Shown: piece after piece, positions 2,034-12,548 of the stretch
Position numbering within the stretch: position 1 is the first letter of the stretch
Layout of the letters: each line of letters opens with the position of its first letter
Notes under the pieces: generated by a model
What the model was told of the DNA's origin: nothing
Database searches by the model: none
Seen by the model: only the letters and a program-made list of their open reading frames with translations
Made by a program: the position numbers and the translations under genes
NCBI RefSeq assembly: GCF_010587385.1
Contig: NZ_CP047475.1
Coordinates: 2,666,001 to 2,730,000 of the forward strand
From: Vibrio astriarenae
Lineage (GTDB): Bacteria; Pseudomonadota; Gammaproteobacteria; Enterobacterales; Vibrionaceae
Length of the DNA: 64,000 nt
Direction of reading: 5' to 3'

Positions 2034-2109
2034 GGCCCCTTAGCTCAGTGGTTAGAGCAGTCGACTCATAATCGATTGGTCCGCAGTTCAAGTCTGCGAG
2101 GGGCCACCA
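2034..2109 (+). tRNA. ileX: tRNA-Ile2 (anticodon CAU, lysidine type)
   Basis: This 76-nt gene has an encoded CCA. The acceptor stem GGCCCCT pairs with AGGGGCC, the D-arm is TAGCTCAGTGGTTAGAGCA, the anticodon is CAT within GACTCATAATC, and the T-loop is TTCAAGT. The sequence and its place downstream of rpoD match E. coli ileX, so I read it as tRNA-Ile2, whose C34 is converted to lysidine to decode AUA, and not as tRNA-Met. Its 3' 46 bp are the attachment site of the island that follows. Confidence 0.9.
2064..2109. other. attL: 46-bp core repeat in tRNA 3' end
   Basis: Bases 2064-2109 (ACTCATAATCGATTGG to GGGGCCACCA) recur identically at 12482-12527. The repeat covers the anticodon arm to the CCA end, the classic target of tyrosine integrases, and leaves an intact tRNA gene on the left. 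Confidence 0.93.
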
Positions 2110-2114
2110 TATAC

Positions 2115-2160
2115 AGAAAGGCCTGAGAGTGATTTCACTTCTCAGGCCTTTTGCTTTTCT
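2115..2160 (+). terminator. Terminator of tRNA-Ile2 (island-side copy)
   Basis: A long hairpin (AAAGGCCTGAGAGTGA, loop TTT, CACTTCTCAGGCCTTTT) precedes TTGCTTTTCT. Almost the same 46 bp occur beyond the right repeat at 12549-12593, with one base differing. By integration logic this copy came with the island and replaced the host terminator. Confidence 0.85.
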
Positions 2161-2289: not shown

Positions 2290-3006
2290 TTGACTATTAA
2301 TGGGTTAGTACTGTTTTATGTAAACGGTAAGTATCACCAAAGACTAGGGAGAGATGCTATCAACTGGAAACAGTATCAAGAAAGTGTTGCACACTTCTTC
2401 AAAGAGCTAGGGCTCGACACTGAGATTGAAGCTATCGTCCATGGAGTAAGAGGAAAGCATGAGGTAGATGTTCTAGTAAAAGGCAATATCCAAGGTATCC
2501 AATTCACCTGGGTCATCGAGTGTAAAAACTGGAAGAAAAGCATCCCAAAAGAAAAAGTGATGGCACTTTCTTCTATTGTCCAAGACATCGGTGCAGACAG
2601 AGGCTTTCTTCTGTCTGAGTCCGGCTTCCAATCTGGGGCGATTAAAGCTACAGCAAAATCGAATATTACATTGACAAGCCTTCAAGAGCTCGAAGAGGAT
2701 GCTAAGCAAGGTTTATTAGACTCTACACTGGGTTCGATTAGTTGGCGTATAACAAAGGCGCAAACTCAGCTACGAACAATCAATAAGGAAATATTTGACG
2801 CTCCTTACATACCTCCGCCGGAAATACTCGATTTGATGTCATCATTACTTATCCTTAGCTCAGTACTAGAAGATGCAATGAAGGATGAGTACCCTATCAA
2901 CTACTATAGGAATGACACTGTATACTCACAAAAAGAGCTTATTGAACGTGCGAATAAAGTTCTTAACAAAGCGGAGGCTTGGATTTTAGATACACTAAAA
3001 CAATGA
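2290..3006 (+). CDS. Mrr-like restriction endonuclease-fold protein
   Basis: Predicted nuclease of 238 aa. Residues 55-130 show the PD-(D/E)xK pattern: Asp60 in HEVDVLV, then Glu77 and Lys79 in VIECKNW, then GFQSGAIKATAKSNITLTS, a run typical of Mrr_cat proteins. The helical C-terminal half (140-238) has no feature I recognise. The start is TTG at 2290; the frame is open back to a stop at 2170 without an ATG, so the true start is uncertain. It lies 105-115 bp upstream of the TS-like gene on the same strand. Mrr relatives often cut modified DNA, which would suit a partner of the base-modification genes, but the specificity cannot be read here. Confidence 0.72.
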   Translation: MTINGLVLFYVNGKYHQRLGRDAINWKQYQESVAHFFKELGLDTEIEAIVHGVRGKHEVDVLVKGNIQGIQFTWVIECKNWKKSIPKEKVMALSSIVQDIGADRGFLLSESGFQSGAIKATAKSNITLTSLQELEEDAKQGLLDSTLGSISWRITKAQTQLRTINKEIFDAPYIPPPEILDLMSSLLILSSVLEDAMKDEYPINYYRNDTVYSQKELIERANKVLNKAEAWILDTLKQ

Positions 3007-3122
3007 TAACGTGATCGCGAGCCAGTAAAGCAATACTTACTATGCTTCACACTAATGTACTGACTAGATACTAACTCATTAAACACTTTGGTAATATTTT
3101 TCTAAAAATCATGGGGGCTTGC

Positions 3123-4130
3123 ATGTATTTTAGAGAAGATACCATAGATGATTTGATGCGTTCTGTTTATGACGCACTTCTAGAGCGGGGAAAGTCTAAC
3201 TGTGCAACGAAAGGCAGCACAACTGAATTGCTAGGTTGCAACTTAGTACTAAATAACCCTAGAGCAAGAATTAGTCGCTCTGAGTCAAGAGGCAAGATTT
3301 TCAGTTGCCTCGGTGAACTACTATGGTATTTATCTGGGACTGGAGATGTCAGTTTCATAAAACACTACATCAGCAAGTATGAGAAATGTGCAGAAGATAA
3401 TGGTGTCATAAACGGTGCATATGGACCCAGAATATTCCACATGCATGACAAGCACGACCAACTAAAAAATATTCTTGAGTTGCTCAAAGAACGCAGTACT
3501 ACTAGACGCGCAGTTATTCAGCTATTTGACGCTAGTGACATTCAAGTAAACTATAAAGACGTGCCGTGTACTCTGACTTTACAGTTTACTGTAAGAGAGA
3601 ACAGACTAGACCTATACACTATGATGAGGTCAAACGATGCCTACTTAGGCCTACCGCATGATATTTTCTGCTTTACAATGTTGCAGGAAATAGTTGCTTC
3701 AAGTCTAGGGTGTGACCTAGGAAAGTACCACCATTTCGTAGTAAGCCTTCACCTTTATGATAAACATATTGAAAAAGTAAAAAACATGCAAAATGAGGGT
3801 TATATGGCCACTCATGACCTCATGGAACCTATGCCAGAGGAAAACTTTATTTCTATACGGAATACAATTCTAGAATGTGAAAACAAAATAAGAACTCTCC
3901 AAGATATAGACCTAGATAACGTTCAATTAGAAGACTACTGGAAGGACATACTGAGACTTTTACAAATCTATACAGCTCTAGATAATAAGGATTTAAGAAC
4001 GGCAATTACTACCGCGAGAAAACTGAATAACACTCAGTATTCCATTTTTACCGACTCTCGGATAAAGGACTTCACTAGTGGACAAAGACAAGATATTAAA
4101 ACTGATAGAGTCAAGCCTCTACCAATATAA
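3123..4130 (+). CDS. Thymidylate synthase-fold pyrimidine (hydroxy)methylase, probably cytosine-type
   Basis: Homologue of ThyA and phage dNMP hydroxymethylases, which transfer a one-carbon unit from methylene-tetrahydrofolate to C5 of a pyrimidine nucleotide. Numbered from MYFRED at 3123, it shows Glu65 in GELLWYLSG, paired Arg128-Arg129, catalytic Cys149 in DVPCTLTLQF, Arg169-Ser170 and Asp172 in MRSNDAYLGLP, and His210 with Tyr212 in LHLYDKH. The position equivalent to E. coli Asn177 is Asp180 (GLPHDI). Asp here marks T4 dCMP hydroxymethylase and switches ThyA toward dCMP. At 335 aa it is longer than ThyA (264), with a divergent C-terminus. ATG 3111 is possible, but MYFRED aligns better with the family. 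The 3' end overlaps the next gene by 53 bp. Confidence 0.82.
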   Translation: MYFREDTIDDLMRSVYDALLERGKSNCATKGSTTELLGCNLVLNNPRARISRSESRGKIFSCLGELLWYLSGTGDVSFIKHYISKYEKCAEDNGVINGAYGPRIFHMHDKHDQLKNILELLKERSTTRRAVIQLFDASDIQVNYKDVPCTLTLQFTVRENRLDLYTMMRSNDAYLGLPHDIFCFTMLQEIVASSLGCDLGKYHHFVVSLHLYDKHIEKVKNMQNEGYMATHDLMEPMPEENFISIRNTILECENKIRTLQDIDLDNVQLEDYWKDILRLLQIYTALDNKDLRTAITTARKLNNTQYSIFTDSRIKDFTSGQRQDIKTDRVKPLPI

Positions 4131-5022
4131 TAAAGGTTGCAAATTACAAGGACTGTATACTCCAGAACTATATAGCACCCTTTCAATGCAAATACTCGAT
4201 AGCATCAGAAGAATAGAGTATGTTACGGTTATTGGTACAAGAGAGATTTCAATTTTAAGAGCCAATCCATACAGTGACTTTTTTGATCCACTAAGAGCTG
4301 CATGGCTTCAAAGTAAAAAAGGCAATTATGACGAGGCTTGTTGGCTGGTTTTTCTAGCTACTCACTTTGGAAAAAGTAAAAAAACTGGGTGGAAACTCTG
4401 TCAAGATATTTATGGTGGGCTAGGAAGTAAAGTTTGGACGTGGGATTTAGTTTCTCAAGACATTGAACAGTTTATAGAATGGTATGAAAAAGCTTATGTT
4501 ATAATGTGTAACGATAGCATTGAGCGACAATATGGTAATCATAGAAAATATGAGACTCTAAAACCAAACAGTAAAAGAGCCCCTCATCGAGTAATTGAAA
4601 GCTACGTAAAATGGATAGGTGGCTCAAGAAGCCATGAAATTAGGTTCTCCGAGCCAGAATGTATCGCAGGAACTAAACTGTCTTCAGAGGCACTTTTTGA
4701 TGTGTTGTATAGTAGTATGAAAAGTGTTGTATCTTTTGGTCGAACCGCAAAGTTTGATTATTTGACAATGTTAGCAAAAGTTAATCTGTTAGACATAGAC
4801 CCCAAAGATCTTTATCTTTCTGGTGCAACTGGCCCATTATCCGGGTCAAAGTTAGTTCTATTCAATGACAAAAAGCACAATATAAGCATCAATAACCTTA
4901 ATAATGAACTTTACAAGTTAAGTCAGGTTATACCCGCTCACAAGTTAAAAATGCAAATACTTGAAGATGCCTTGTGCAACTGGCAAAAATCACCAAGCAA
5001 GTATAAATATTTTGGCGGATAA
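4078..5022 (+). CDS. aGPT-Pplase3-family protein (modified-pyrimidine enzyme, predicted)
   Basis: A 314-aa protein that I recognise as alpha-glutamyl/putrescinyl thymine pyrophosphorylase clade 3, a family named from comparative genomics of hypermodified-base pathways. Family-like motifs are DPLRAAW (70-76), DEACW (85-89), THFGK (95-99), GNHRKYE (153-159), FGRTAKFDYLTML (220-232), GATGPLSGSKLVLF (249-262) and a C-terminal EDALCNW. The start is GTG at 4078, with AAAGGACT about 8 nt upstream, inside the TS-like gene in another frame. The 53-bp overlap implies translational coupling. The activity is a prediction; phage relatives of another clade have been reassigned to 5-hydroxymethyl-dU DNA kinases. 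It converges on the antitoxin gene with one base between stops. Confidence 0.8.
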   Translation: MDKDKILKLIESSLYQYNKGCKLQGLYTPELYSTLSMQILDSIRRIEYVTVIGTREISILRANPYSDFFDPLRAAWLQSKKGNYDEACWLVFLATHFGKSKKTGWKLCQDIYGGLGSKVWTWDLVSQDIEQFIEWYEKAYVIMCNDSIERQYGNHRKYETLKPNSKRAPHRVIESYVKWIGGSRSHEIRFSEPECIAGTKLSSEALFDVLYSSMKSVVSFGRTAKFDYLTMLAKVNLLDIDPKDLYLSGATGPLSGSKLVLFNDKKHNISINNLNNELYKLSQVIPAHKLKMQILEDALCNWQKSPSKYKYFGG

Positions 5023-5023
5023 T

Positions 5024-6115
5024 CTATCCACCAAGCTGCTCACGATTATACTTGGTTTTTAACCTATTAAGGTGGGAGTATGGTATAGCTCCCATATGCT
5101 GAAGCTGTCCTAGAACTATTCCTCTAGAAACACCAATACGTCTTGCAAATCTGATTATACCCTTCCAGTTTTTTACACTGAACTGACGCAACTCAGGAAT
5201 ATATTGGTTAGGAATTAGAATCTCACGAGCAAAGTCATTCGCTTCCAACTCTTCCTTGTCAGACATTTCACATATTCCCTTGCCTTCTAGCCTCAGAACC
5301 CCTATATCATGGAGTACAAGGTGGCCTATTTCGTGAAAGAGCGTAAACCAGAAATGATCATCTGATAAGTATCTAAAGCTCATTATTAATGTGGCTTTGT
5401 CTTTTTCAAAAAAACAAGTCGCTCCACTAGCTCTGCACCCATTTGGAGTTTGTAATATAACGAGGCTTACCCCACAAGAAGCAAGTATATTTTTTAACTT
5501 GGGGAGGAAATCCTGAGGGGCTGGTATTAACGTTAAACGCCTAATATCATTGAGGCTCGAACGTAAGGCATCACGATCCCATTCAAAACAGCGATTTTGG
5601 CGAGATAGTAATTCTGCACGTCTTAACCACGCGAGCTCCGCTGCATGAACAGTAGTCAGGGTATTGGACTTCCTAAATGCTACAGACAAATTTCTATGCT
5701 TGTACTCATCAAACCATTCAGTTACCGAATCAACGCCAAAAAATTTCAAACAGCCATTGAGTTTCTTTTTTCCGCTTAACCCTTTTGGTATCCATCCAAA
5801 CTTACTCATATCTCGAGTTGGAAGAGACTCTAACCACGAGTTATTCAGCTCTTCCTGTCTAACGACGTGCTTTCTATAAGCACTTTCCCGTGAGAGCCAA
5901 AACTGTTGGGATACAGCAAAAATGGTCTCGAGACGAGAGGCCAACGGCTCGCTAATAGTCAGCTCACCATCTATTAAAGATTGTCCTTTTGACTTAGGTA
6001 GACCAATCTGTTTACTAAGCTCTTCTATCGATAGCCCTACTTCATCCATAAGATCGATGATGGTATCTCCTGGAGGAGATACCCAATCTGGGTTGAAATC
6101 GTTACTAACAAACAT
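5024..6115 (-). CDS. HTH and ImmA/IrrE-domain antitoxin (HigA-like)
   Basis: A 363-aa protein. An N-terminal HTH (about 18-75: TIIDLMDEVGLSIEELSKQIGLP) resembles HigA/VapI antitoxins. The C-terminal ImmA/IrrE zinc-peptidase-like domain has HEIGH at 261-265 and then EELEANDFAREILIP. Long XRE-ImmA/IrrE fusions of this kind pair with small HigB/RelE-type toxins, and the upstream gene fits that role, overlapping it by 11 bp. Expected functions are DNA-binding autoregulation and toxin neutralisation. Whether the intact HEXXH makes it a working protease is unknown; some relatives cleave repressors on stress. Confidence 0.75.
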   Translation of the reverse strand: MFVSNDFNPDWVSPPGDTIIDLMDEVGLSIEELSKQIGLPKSKGQSLIDGELTISEPLASRLETIFAVSQQFWLSRESAYRKHVVRQEELNNSWLESLPTRDMSKFGWIPKGLSGKKKLNGCLKFFGVDSVTEWFDEYKHRNLSVAFRKSNTLTTVHAAELAWLRRAELLSRQNRCFEWDRDALRSSLNDIRRLTLIPAPQDFLPKLKNILASCGVSLVILQTPNGCRASGATCFFEKDKATLIMSFRYLSDDHFWFTLFHEIGHLVLHDIGVLRLEGKGICEMSDKEELEANDFAREILIPNQYIPELRQFSVKNWKGIIRFARRIGVSRGIVLGQLQHMGAIPYSHLNRLKTKYNREQLGG

Positions 6116-6506
6116 TATTTTCGCCTATAAACATTAGCTTAACTCTGATTACAGTTGCCCAATTGATACTTCCATTATCATTAATGGGAGGATTAGTGTG
6201 CCCACACACAAACCACATTGATACATTTTTATCCAAGTTGATTATAAGATACTCTGTCGCATTTTTGCACTCTACTCTTGGGTTTCCTAGCGGTAAATCA
6301 GCAACTCTTTCAGCTGCAAGGACATCTGACAAGCGAGAACGGAGCTTCCTCGCCAGTAGCTCACCTAATTTATCTTGAGCAACTTTGGCGAACTCACACA
6401 ATTCCCTAAGTTCTTTAGTTTGAAATGAAATATACAAGGTCAACCAATGAGTAATCTCAGAGCACTTCATTGGGACAAAGTACACCATAAACTCAACACA
6501 TTCCAT
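6105..6506 (-). CDS. HigB/RelE-like toxin (killer-suppression family)
   Basis: Putative RNase toxin of up to 133 aa. The part from LYISFQTKELRELCE onward matches small HigB-like proteins: a KLRSRLSDVLAAERVADLPLGNPRVE stretch, then a beta-rich YLIINLDKNVSMWFVCGHTNPP and a terminal NWATVIRVKLMFIGE. The family usually starts close to this LYISF point, so the first 25 or so residues may be untranslated; an in-frame ATG (MKCSEITHW) and a TTG are alternative starts. The toxin-first order and 11-bp overlap with the HTH-ImmA/IrrE gene are typical of a type II toxin-antitoxin pair. It probably stabilises the island or acts in abortive defence. Confidence 0.68.
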   Translation of the reverse strand: MECVEFMVYFVPMKCSEITHWLTLYISFQTKELRELCEFAKVAQDKLGELLARKLRSRLSDVLAAERVADLPLGNPRVECKNATEYLIINLDKNVSMWFVCGHTNPPINDNGSINWATVIRVKLMFIGENNVC

Positions 6507-6657: not shown

Positions 6658-8205
6658 TTAAAAGCCAAATCGCATGCAGCTTTCTACACGCCACTCAAAA
6701 AGGCGAGTCACATACTTGTTTGTCTCACTAACAACACCTTTCAAAGCCCTTAAAAGCTCCTCTCCGCAATAAGGGCTAGACTTCACCACTCCGGTACTGG
6801 TATCGACGGTAACTTCATAATAGGGCTTAAATACTTGCTGCTTTCTCTTAGCAAAAACACCTCCCATTAATGTCGTAAACTCTTTCCACTTCCCTTGGTC
6901 GGCTGAAACTCGAATTGCTTCTTGAGCTTGATTCAAGTCCTCTGATTTCTTGAGCCTACGTAACTCACGCCAAACGGTGACTGAGCACCCTCCCAGTTGC
7001 TGAAACTGACGGATTCCCCAACATGCAGCCCAAGCATCAACTCTTGCAGCTGCATCTAAGGGGTCTTCACCATAAACGCCCGTATCTAAGTCACTACCAT
7101 CGATGTTTTTAGATATGTATTTGGCGATATAACCTGTTGCTGATCCTTTGGAAGGGTCAATTTTAACTTCAGTAAATCGGTGTTCTGTTGCCCCAAGTTC
7201 ACCTCCATCCTCTCGCATCGCATATGCCTTCATAGTATCTACCATTAACTGGTAATCTTTTTTTTCTACGAACAGGAGCAAATGCCAGTGAGGCGTTCCA
7301 TCGTGTTGGGGTTCAGCAACTCGAAAGCCATAAAAGCGTATATTGAGTCGATTTAGGTTCGCCCTTATAAGTACCCAAATACTATTCAAGTAATCTTGCC
7401 CATCTAAAGGAGTAAAACCTCCCCATTTGGGATTAGGTTGACCTGATTTCGAGTAGCTTCGATGATATTTAGATGGGCAAGTAATTGTAAGAAAGCACGC
7501 TTCATGCCCTAACTCTTGAGATAACTCTTCAAAGCCTCTAGCTCTCATCATCAACTCTCCCTTTCTAATTTTCGGGTCTGCTACCCCCTTTTGAGAAAGC
7601 TCTAAAAGAGAAAAACTCTGTCCAAAATTGTTAGTAGCAATTGTATTTTCTAAATAGGCTTTTTGATAAGCCTTCTGATTCTTGCGTGACAGCAATGTAT
7701 GATATGAACAGTACAAGCTTCTGATTTTGTTGACTTGGTTTAAGTGATGGAGAACCGTTTCTACGTTTCTTCTGAGAGCTAATCTTAACTTTCTAAGCCA
7801 CCACTTTCGGTCACTATATCTTGCAACTTCACCAGCAATGGAATAAGTAATTTTACCTAAATCAATACCTTGCTTGATAACAAATAACCTCAATGCGTCA
7901 ACAGATAGCGCATCATCTAAGTACTGCCTGCGTAGAGCCAAAGCAGATTTAGCTAGGTGCAAAGCCTTAGCTCTGAGATCATCCTCTGACAAATGAAGCT
8001 CTAACTCATCAAATGGAATAGAAAGTTTGTTTGAGATCTGCTGAACAGTCTCCCGAAGGTAACTATTCCGTTGAAATTTAGTCTTATAAGAGAAGTAGTT
8101 TTTGAGAAGTATTGATTGAATTGTCTCTGGAAATGGAGAAAGCCTTTGTACAACAAAGGCTCTATCATCATAAGGGATACAACTAAGGTCAAGGTTGCAA
8201 GTCAT
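6658..8205 (-). CDS. Replication initiation endonuclease, phage P2 gpA type (HUH)
   Basis: A 515-aa rolling-circle initiator related to P2 gpA. The HUH motif is His306-Trp-His308 in TPHWHLLLF. The catalytic tyrosine pair is Tyr359 and Tyr363 in TGYIAKYISKNI, the YxxxY spacing of gpA proteins. FLTITCPSKYHRSY (238-251) is the usual first motif. It would nick one strand at an origin and stay covalently bound while a host helicase unwinds. Its ATG overlaps the stop of the small upstream gene as ATGA, so the two are co-translated. P4-type satellites normally use a primase-helicase, so a P2-type initiator suggests a different satellite lineage. Confidence 0.85.
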   Translation of the reverse strand: MTCNLDLSCIPYDDRAFVVQRLSPFPETIQSILLKNYFSYKTKFQRNSYLRETVQQISNKLSIPFDELELHLSEDDLRAKALHLAKSALALRRQYLDDALSVDALRLFVIKQGIDLGKITYSIAGEVARYSDRKWWLRKLRLALRRNVETVLHHLNQVNKIRSLYCSYHTLLSRKNQKAYQKAYLENTIATNNFGQSFSLLELSQKGVADPKIRKGELMMRARGFEELSQELGHEACFLTITCPSKYHRSYSKSGQPNPKWGGFTPLDGQDYLNSIWVLIRANLNRLNIRFYGFRVAEPQHDGTPHWHLLLFVEKKDYQLMVDTMKAYAMREDGGELGATEHRFTEVKIDPSKGSATGYIAKYISKNIDGSDLDTGVYGEDPLDAAARVDAWAACWGIRQFQQLGGCSVTVWRELRRLKKSEDLNQAQEAIRVSADQGKWKEFTTLMGGVFAKRKQQVFKPYYEVTVDTSTGVVKSSPYCGEELLRALKGVVSETNKYVTRLFEWRVESCMRFGF

Positions 8206-11069: not shown

Positions 11070-12305
11070 CTAGCCTATTAGATTAACCGCTGCCGCTTTG
11101 TGCTCAGGAGCCAAGTGAGCATATCTAAGAGTCATCTTCAAATCGGAGTGCCCAAGAAGTTCTCGAACTGTATTCAAGTCAACACCAGCCATAACTAACT
11201 GACTTGCAAAGTGATGGCGCAAATCGTGAAAATTAAAATTAACCAAGCCAGCTTTTTCAACAAGCTTAAGCCAAGGTTTCTTTATGTCTGTAAGCGGCTT
11301 ATCTTGGCCTGATACAAAAACGTACTCATTTTTTGGATGCATCTTTCTCCACGAAAAAAGCACCTGATAAGCTGTATCATTAAGGGGAACAACTCTCGAT
11401 TTCTTCGATTTTGCTATCGTTGCACGAACTGTCAGATATCGGTTATCAAACGAAATATCTGTCCACTTCAAAGCCATCAATTCGCCTCTTCTCAACCCCG
11501 TATTCATTGCAGTTAAGATAATTGGCTCCACGTAATCCACAAATCTAACATTATCTAATGAAGGATAAGGTTCCTCTCCTCGTACTTCACGATGTTGGTT
11601 TGCAGAACGGCGCTTTTCACGAATTAACTGATCTCGAGTATAAATGCTCGCGAGTAGTCTAGATTGTTCTTCTTGAGTTAGATAACGAACTCTCGTGTTG
11701 TCATGTTTTATGGTTTTCACTTTCGACAGGGTGTGGCTCTCGATAAGCCCCCATTCAACTGCGCGCGACAAAGCTCCTTTTAGGGTATTAACTGTGTAAT
11801 TGATAGTTGAAGGTGCACGACCTAGCTTAACCCTCTCATTTCTCCATTTCTCTACATCCCAAGCAGTAATTTGGTCTAGATCTTTCGATAAGAGGTGTTT
11901 AAAACGACTTTTGAGGTGATTGATTGTCTTCGATGCGGTTTTAGGGTTTCTTGCTATCAAGTAAGCGCTGTACTTTTTGTCTAAAAAGACTTCGAAGTTT
12001 AGAAACTTCCTTCTCTTTGTATCTTCTCTAGCCTTTTTCTTCTCTTCTTGGACATTTTTACCTGAAGCAACTTCACCTAACTTTTGCTTTGCAATATCGC
12101 GAGCTTGTGCGGGGGTAAGGTCTGTCGCCAATCCAATCTTATAATTTACCTGCTTACCGTTCAGCCTAAAGTAAACGTAATAAACTACCTTACCAGACTC
12201 AAATTTGATGGCATGAAAGCCTGAAACTTCTGTGTCATTGAGCCGTCTTTCTTCTGGTGTTAATGCCTTGAGAGTCGCACTTGTAATCTTTTTTTTGATA
12301 GCCAT
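11070..12305 (-). CDS. int: Tyrosine-type site-specific integrase
   Basis: A 411-aa integrase of the P4/phage type that recombines the island into the tRNA-Ile2 gene. It has an N-terminal arm-binding DUF4102-like part (TSATLKALTPEERRLNDTEVSGFHA), a central SAM-like core-binding domain (about 100-190) and a C-terminal catalytic domain. Catalytic residues are Arg272 (TGLRRGEL), His360 and Arg363 (HDLRHHF), His386 (LLGHSD) and Tyr395 (TLRYAHL). It is complete and looks active. Its 5' end faces the right attachment region, and the tandem 11-bp repeats overlap its probable promoter, suggesting autoregulation by int or AlpA. Confidence 0.95.
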   Translation of the reverse strand: MAIKKKITSATLKALTPEERRLNDTEVSGFHAIKFESGKVVYYVYFRLNGKQVNYKIGLATDLTPAQARDIAKQKLGEVASGKNVQEEKKKAREDTKRRKFLNFEVFLDKKYSAYLIARNPKTASKTINHLKSRFKHLLSKDLDQITAWDVEKWRNERVKLGRAPSTINYTVNTLKGALSRAVEWGLIESHTLSKVKTIKHDNTRVRYLTQEEQSRLLASIYTRDQLIREKRRSANQHREVRGEEPYPSLDNVRFVDYVEPIILTAMNTGLRRGELMALKWTDISFDNRYLTVRATIAKSKKSRVVPLNDTAYQVLFSWRKMHPKNEYVFVSGQDKPLTDIKKPWLKLVEKAGLVNFNFHDLRHHFASQLVMAGVDLNTVRELLGHSDLKMTLRYAHLAPEHKAAAVNLIG

Positions 12306-12481: not shown

Positions 12482-12527
12482 ACTCATAATCGATTGGTCC
12501 GCAGTTCAAGTCTGCGAGGGGCCACCA
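12482..12527. other. attR: 46-bp tRNA 3'-end remnant
   Basis: An exact copy of tRNA-Ile2 bases 2064-2109, without the 5' half, so it is not a tRNA gene. It marks the right boundary of the island and is the original chromosomal 3' end of the tRNA. Confidence 0.93.
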
Positions 12528-12548
12528 AATTCAGTTCGATAAGAACAA

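Follow-up and report, generated by a model that had tools for sequence, protein, structure and literature searches.

A stretch of 64,000 nucleotides from Vibrio astriarenae (assembly GCF_010587385.1, contig NZ_CP047475.1, positions 2,666,001 to 2,730,000; hereafter the window) carries at 3123-6506 a set of four genes that recurs as a unit in distant bacteria. Two overlapping genes on the plus strand, for an enzyme of thymidylate synthase (TS) fold and a protein of the aGPT-Pplase3 family, meet tail to tail two genes on the minus strand, for a HigA-type helix-turn-helix protein fused to an ImmA/IrrE (M78) metallopeptidase (HigA-ImmA) and a HigB-like small protein. This convergent pair at 5024-6506 was overlooked in a preliminary description of the same DNA, and it is part of the same unit. 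We regard it as somewhat probable that TS and aGPT-Pplase3, in a portion of the loci with a protein of the fold of uracil- and thymine-DNA glycosylases (UDG/TDG) between them, are the half responsible for synthesis in a conserved and mobile cassette of defence type, and that they meet there the HigB-like/HigA-ImmA pair. The gene set, its conservation, its mobility and the TS residues of the type selecting deoxycytidine monophosphate (dCMP) are read from sequences, and the folds are taken from models. That the enzymes convert dCMP to a modified cytosine, and that the cassette belongs to anti-phage defence, are fairly supported proposals, and control of the HigA-ImmA/HigB-like arm by this cytosine is weakly suggested.

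The TS gene occupies 3123..4130 on the plus strand (335 aa; Thymidylat_synt, PF00303, 110.6 bits); an in-frame ATG is also present at 3111, and most aligned homologues begin like the ATG at 3123. The aGPT-Pplase3 gene follows at 4078..5022 on the same strand with a GTG start (314 aa), overlapping the TS gene by 53 bp in a different frame, and the possible ribosome-binding site of this GTG, AAAGGACT, lies inside the TS gene at 4064..4071, 6 bases ahead of the start. Along with this arrangement, the preliminary description had reported the ThyA catalytic set in the first protein and two family motifs in the second; Glu65, Cys149, Arg169, His210 and Tyr212 are all present in the product starting at 3123, GNHRKYE and FGRTAKFDYLTML were both found in the second protein, and the placement of both proteins in pyrimidine-modifying families holds.

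Loci for comparison were collected by turning a profile of 27 aGPT-Pplase3 proteins into two peptide patterns, with which 84,980 species genomes were searched, and the best 80 of 150 confirmed relatives were analysed; relatives without the patterns escape this search. Neighbour families were found by BLAST clustering of all adjacent genes and then sought again with family profiles. Lack of conserved adjacency had been named beforehand as grounds for giving up the proposed pairing, and the opposite was observed: of the 80 loci, 77 have a TS gene along with aGPT-Pplase3. In 76 of these TS precedes aGPT-Pplase3 on the same strand (it is downstream in L039), so the adjacency is not due to chance. 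The spacing is less than 150 bases, or an overlap, in 47 loci and 317 to 1,515 bases in 29. Two of the loci without TS are on contigs that begin less than 200 bases from aGPT-Pplase3 (L041, L082), and L076 lacks it; a search for a substitute there gave only a shortened UDG-like frame and unlinkable frames, and L076 is read as a decaying copy. HigA-ImmA was found in 79/80 loci both by clustering and by profile, and HigB-like in 79/80 by profile (68/80 by clustering), the single miss for both being L015, where the contig ends 144 bases past aGPT-Pplase3. All four genes are together in 76 loci, and a UDG-fold gene is added in 33, among them that of Marinobacterium sedimentorum (L009).

The layout is also conserved. 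In 73 loci used for an analysis of stop spacing (L052, L059 and loci missing a large gene were left out), two are codirectional, and the tail-to-tail stops range from 26 bp overlapping to 20 bp apart in 66 of the 71 convergent ones. The gene set survives rearrangement, because L022 and L039 keep the genes with all of them running in one direction; the five genes of L039:9186-13579, from Sorangium, stand in the order UDG-like, aGPT-Pplase3, HigB-like, HigA-ImmA and TS. Pairwise protein distances among aGPT-Pplase3, TS and HigA-ImmA correlate (r 0.68, 0.75 and 0.74, host relatedness not removed; the highest of 500 permutations gave 0.15, 0.14 and 0.23), and because of this covariation, in which host relatedness is included, the three large proteins appear to travel together. 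By record titles, the 80 loci belong to Pseudomonadota, Bacteroidota, Actinomycetes, Chloroflexota, Acidobacteria, Planctomycetes, Verrucomicrobia and Sorangium, the phylum of each named organism being as we presume it. When 398 genomes were drawn evenly from the phylum, the four matches were the window, two further full quartets and a divergent aGPT-Pplase3 copy standing alone near a contig start (L094:1651-2559, with GHHRAYE for GNHRKYE), and a TS profile picked out four genomes at E <= 1e-40, three of them cassettes.

For the TS, the preliminary description had considered dUMP among the substrates; the selecting residues predict dCMP instead. Its two best relatives in PDB bear the name CMP 5-hydroxymethylase (E 2e-37), and from the residue numbering, which agrees after an offset, we take them to be MilA; no chain called thymidylate synthase scores better than E 2.3e-21. 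According to the part of the MilA literature consulted, Asp186 is common to cytosine enzymes and uracil enzymes carry Asn, while Lys133/Ala176 go with a preference for ribose and Arg/Ser with one for deoxyribose (PMC5175136). In the alignment with CMP 5-hydroxymethylase, the window TS shares the cytosine-selecting Asp (Asp180) with MilA, its best solved relative, and differs from it in having Arg128 and Ser170 at the two sugar positions. It thus carries every residue of the dCMP type and lacks the Asn that selects uracil in thymidylate synthases; therefore dCMP is its predicted substrate. Position 180 is Asn both in the host ThyA and in the TS of phage ViI, where one residue is inserted nearby. 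Among 90 cassette TS reading frames, Asp180 is present in 89 (the exception is a piece of a split gene), Ser170 in 90 and Arg128 in 83, with Lys in six and a gap in one. The six frames with Lys, as in MilA, are those of L074, L077, L081, L083, L039 and L102; they keep Ser170 and Asp180, and their sugar preference may be relaxed. The product would be 5-hydroxymethyl-dCMP or 5-methyl-dCMP, and we favour hydroxymethylation because the partner is ADDT-like.

This partner scores 305.1 bits against aGPT-Pplase3 (PF18746, Pfam gathering cut-off 25 bits) and also 210.8 bits against the amino acid:DNA transferase family ADDT (PF18724, cut-off 26.2 bits), whose members attach amino acids to activated hydroxymethyl pyrimidines of DNA. 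For its AlphaFold2 model (pLDDT 94.5), the best named viral fold match is the ADDT of LilMcDreamy (E 7.8e-4, probability 1.00, TM 0.45-0.48). Weaker named matches are kinase helical domains (E 0.034 and 0.11) and further ADDTs (E 0.041, 0.069 and 0.44), and several nameless matches score better than these. Since the lower matches mix both kinds and some are nameless, the fold search alone does not separate an ADDT from a 5-hydroxymethyl-deoxyuridine (5-hmdU) kinase. The link to 5-hmdU kinases drawn in the preliminary description is retained in part: helical domains of these kinases occur among the weaker matches, and a kinase identity is not preferred, as the best viral match is a phage ADDT. 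The protein has its fold and some residues in common with phage ADDTs, its helical model may resemble helix-hairpin-helix (HhH) DNA glycosylases (modest Z), and it is predicted to be a base-modifying transferase acting on DNA or on a nucleotide. Its database relatives amount to 2,685 matches at E <= 0.001; the literature searched by aGPT-Pplase family name yielded annotations and one prediction, and no characterised clade-3 protein.

HigA-ImmA is encoded at 5024..6115 on the minus strand (PF06114, HEXXH intact), with its stop codon 1 base from that of aGPT-Pplase3. A profile of 22 such proteins matches HigA antitoxins in PDB over the N-terminal part (1.1e-10) and CapP over the peptidase part (0.0012), and all 22 share H261, E262, H265 and E289. 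The small gene at 6105..6506 on the minus strand, whose start codon is uncertain, has no Pfam match of its own and was assigned by profile comparison: against eight PF05015 proteins, hhalign gave a probability of 93% (E 3.4e-7), and two controls gave 0.1% and 0.3%. Matches of the 23 small proteins are no better than chance in PADLOC (one at E 0.022) and Pfam (best E 0.012, one member), and PDB gave none up to E 10.

Such a pair, HigB-like first and HigA-peptidase second, is also part of PD-lambda-2 of E. coli, and the window HigA-ImmA scores 88.3 bits against PADLOC PD-Lambda-2_B. In the portion of the report consulted, PD-lambda-2 consists of HigB, HigA-peptidase and a third gene and is a tested abortive defence, its HigA-peptidase being toxic on overexpression and rescued by the HigB-like part (PMC9519451). 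The third component is described there as related to a P4 phage antitoxin, whereas in the cassette the pair is accompanied by TS and aGPT-Pplase3, encoded on the opposite strand. CapP and RmrA-type M78 proteins are alike in M78 peptidase and defence context; the similarity is weak and the partners differ.

The pair also occurs away from aGPT-Pplase3. In the 398-genome draw (HigA-ImmA at E <= 1e-30, five candidates scored per genome), close HigA-ImmA relatives were found in 21 genomes, 18 of which lack aGPT-Pplase3, and in the 16 of these 18 loci that were read, over 7 to 12 kb each, there was no TS, aGPT-Pplase3 or UDG-like gene at E <= 0.001. A HigB-like gene is present in 14 of the 16, with three weak scores (23.5, 19.0 and 15.5 bits). 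Type I methyltransferase genes adjoin the pair in three: in L173 and L177 methyltransferase and specificity genes flank it (PADLOC confirms both in L173; the specificity gene of L177 is recognized by its likeness to that of L173), and in L179 its neighbours on the two sides are a methyltransferase gene and GajA of Gabija. The pair therefore looks like a defence plug-in that occurs with other defence systems, and because of this company TS-aGPT-Pplase3 looks like one of its clients.

In the mechanism that we favour, TS would make 5-hydroxymethyl-dCMP (or 5-methyl-dCMP) from dCMP, and aGPT-Pplase3 would then modify this cytosine further, either as a nucleotide or within DNA, much as related phage enzymes decorate the 5-hydroxymethyl pyrimidines of DNA. 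Where a UDG-fold protein is encoded, it would bind or remove the altered base. HigB-like/HigA-ImmA would be the sensor and toxin arm, for which the modified cytosine might serve as an ingredient or signal, silencing or arming it, and a phage infection that upsets cytosine nucleotide pools and DNA would release an abortive response. A more far-reaching form of this proposal, which we put forward tentatively, is a new class of immunity in which a self-made hypermodified cytosine, produced with an ADDT-like enzyme and often a TDG-like glycosylase, is watched by HigB-like/HigA-ImmA; infection would then be sensed, again tentatively, when a nucleotide or DNA mark private to the cell is disturbed.

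Several observations weigh against this mechanism. In 47 of the 80 loci, and in the window, no UDG-fold gene was found, and the aGPT-Pplase3 gene of L094 stands without cassette partners. Phage pathways first phosphorylate the hydroxymethyl group, and no kinase was noticed among the neighbour families recurring in at least four loci, which were inspected by eye and not with a kinase model. The TS might methylate instead of hydroxymethylating. The C-terminal DxH of the eight PF05015 proteins is absent from the alignment of 23 HigB-like sequences; an identity as HigB RNase is unsupported at the residue level, and the protein may not be an RNase. Finally, comparing the DNA ahead of TS with that ahead of HigB-like gave no convincing common operator: the best 18-base match is at least 14 for 23 of the 62 loci and for 98 of the 372 mismatched pairs, a slight excess that does not suffice to claim one, and the two arms therefore need not be co-regulated.

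Another explanation, which we consider rather unlikely, is that modified dCMP is raised to the triphosphate, enters phage DNA and is attacked there by the UDG/TDG-fold protein or an Mrr-like nuclease, while the pair only controls expression or stabilizes the element. The middle gene present in 33 of the 80 loci agrees with this, since its product matches the UDG/TDG superfamily in fold and the Asn of its GxNPS motif is invariant in the 17 proteins aligned; none of 17 members of the family (L008:1391-2188 and 32 further loci) has a Pfam match for it. An Mrr_cat restriction endonuclease-like gene (2290..3006, plus strand; PF04471, 56.1 bits) also lies just upstream of the window cassette on the same element. 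However, no UDG-fold gene was found in the majority of loci, as counted above, and relatives of the Mrr-like gene occur in only 4 of the 80 (close upstream in L030, L051 and L066, about 2 kb downstream in L037), which rules it out as a fixed cassette partner. The recurrent neighbours, among which no nucleotide kinase was noticed, do not help this explanation either.

It is improbable, in our judgement, that TS and aGPT-Pplase3 decorate the DNA of the cell or of the element with hypermodified cytosine and so block restriction enzymes, a proposal close to that of the preliminary description. The likeness of aGPT-Pplase3 to phage ADDTs in fold and residues speaks for it, and many restriction enzymes are blocked by hypermodified thymine, according to the part of the source consulted (PMC6449724). 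Pseudomonas phage M6 and Salmonella phage ViI, which hypermodify thymine, both have an ADDT-family protein, and a TS-fold enzyme is annotated in ViI too. The ViI enzyme, however, has the uracil residue where the cassette TS has Asp, no 5-hmdU DNA kinase was noticed among the recurrent cassette neighbours, and the cassette has a bacterial host and toxin-antitoxin-like partners. Decoration of DNA gives no role to the nearly constant pair, and the cassette is scarce in viruses: there was no match at E <= 0.001 among 50,697 phage records, and 2.9 million viral contigs held 25 cassette loci, two of these on one contig (TS in 25, HigA-ImmA in 24, HigB-like in 22, the misses lying at the ends of the stored DNA). 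Rather than a phage-like pathway of self-protection, the gene context favours anti-phage defence.

Similarly low in probability is a free nucleotide product, in which hydroxymethyl-dCMP is processed into a small-molecule signal or antimetabolite read by HigA-ImmA and DNA is never the substrate. The model for this is the synthesis of mildiomycin, in which MilA acts and then MilB; the closest solved relative of the TS, a CMP 5-hydroxymethylase, and the lack of any kinase noticed among the recurrent neighbours agree with it, but the ADDT and 5-hmdU-kinase fold relatives of aGPT-Pplase3 act on DNA, and the possible resemblance of its helical model to HhH DNA glycosylases, of modest Z, points the same way. 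A spare thymidylate synthase on a mobile element with unrelated neighbours, as the gene is annotated in the annotated records read, is very improbable and already contradicted by Asp in place of the ThyA Asn, by the canonical thyA kept elsewhere in the host genome and by gene partners fixed across distant bacteria.

Returning to the defence-type cassette, parts of it have been named before. In the text of the DefensePredictor study that was covered (PMC13092281), aGPT-Pplase is predicted by machine learning as a defence domain, as a prediction only, and a system with a TS domain was validated, so that the same two domain names, TS and aGPT-Pplase, are called defensive there as here. The legend to the predicted systems includes UDG and HTH among the terms explained, so the authors may have drawn this cassette. 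The coupling to HigB-like/HigA-ImmA and the dCMP specificity are not in the text covered, and our literature searches, judged from listings and some passages, yielded no account of this coupling, of the dCMP-type residues or of the UDG fold. The cassette would be a toxin-antitoxin-linked defence with a base-modification arm. Its partners and likely substrate turn the vague annotation of aGPT-Pplase3 into one pathway, from dCMP through a modified cytosine to a response of a toxin-like pair. If this is true, base hypermodification, described until now mainly in phages, serves bacterial immunity, and the cassette is a bacterial parallel to the eukaryotic pair of hydroxymethylcytosine and TDG.

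The cassette of the window lies on an element of about 10.4 kb integrated at tRNA-Met. A 53-nt direct repeat in the 3' part of this tRNA (tRNA 2034-2109) at 2064..2116 on the plus strand and a 96% identical second copy at 12482..12534, also on the plus strand, are its attachment repeats. The element encodes a tyrosine integrase (11070..12305, minus strand; PF00589, 124.3 bits) and a rolling-circle-type replication initiator, Phage_GPA (6658..8205, minus strand; PF05840, 279 bits). The location on a mobile element, suggested from the start, is borne out by these repeats and the integrase; the two plus-strand genes are not the whole of that unit, which is a quartet or quintet. Type I restriction-modification was not retained as a fixed partner, since none of 85 loci (the 80 cassette loci and L001-L005) showed an HsdM-like frame when scanned for motifs, with a pattern slightly different from that for other loci. 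A small protein with YVDN...WCHLVADS...ASYPHYD, presumably DUF4031, is encoded near or inside 19 of the 80 cassettes (L016, L018, L021, L023 and 15 others).

The cassette was also found in other samples. Among 72,556 plasmid records there were eight matches, and all four genes are present in the 7/7 loci read, although HigB-like scores weakly in two (20.9 and 31.2 bits) and aGPT-Pplase3 is in two pieces in one. In 295 relatives, the three matches were the window, a weak one with a stop, and a quartet probably from the same genome as L010 (Neiella holothuriorum). DNA like the cassette of Enterobacter chuandaensis is present in 229 of 5,426 E. coli genomes, always on the chromosome, and 226 of the 229 matches cover at least 80% of it. 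About 4% of complete E. coli genomes thus hold similar DNA, which makes the cassette amenable to ordinary tools. In each of the three E. coli loci read, the four genes are present with type I restriction-modification genes nearby; a dGTPase-family gene is near two of them and SIR2 near one. A gene annotated as MazG-like lies just past HigB-like in all three (L097:13476-13742, L096:15474-15737 and L098:11438-11740).

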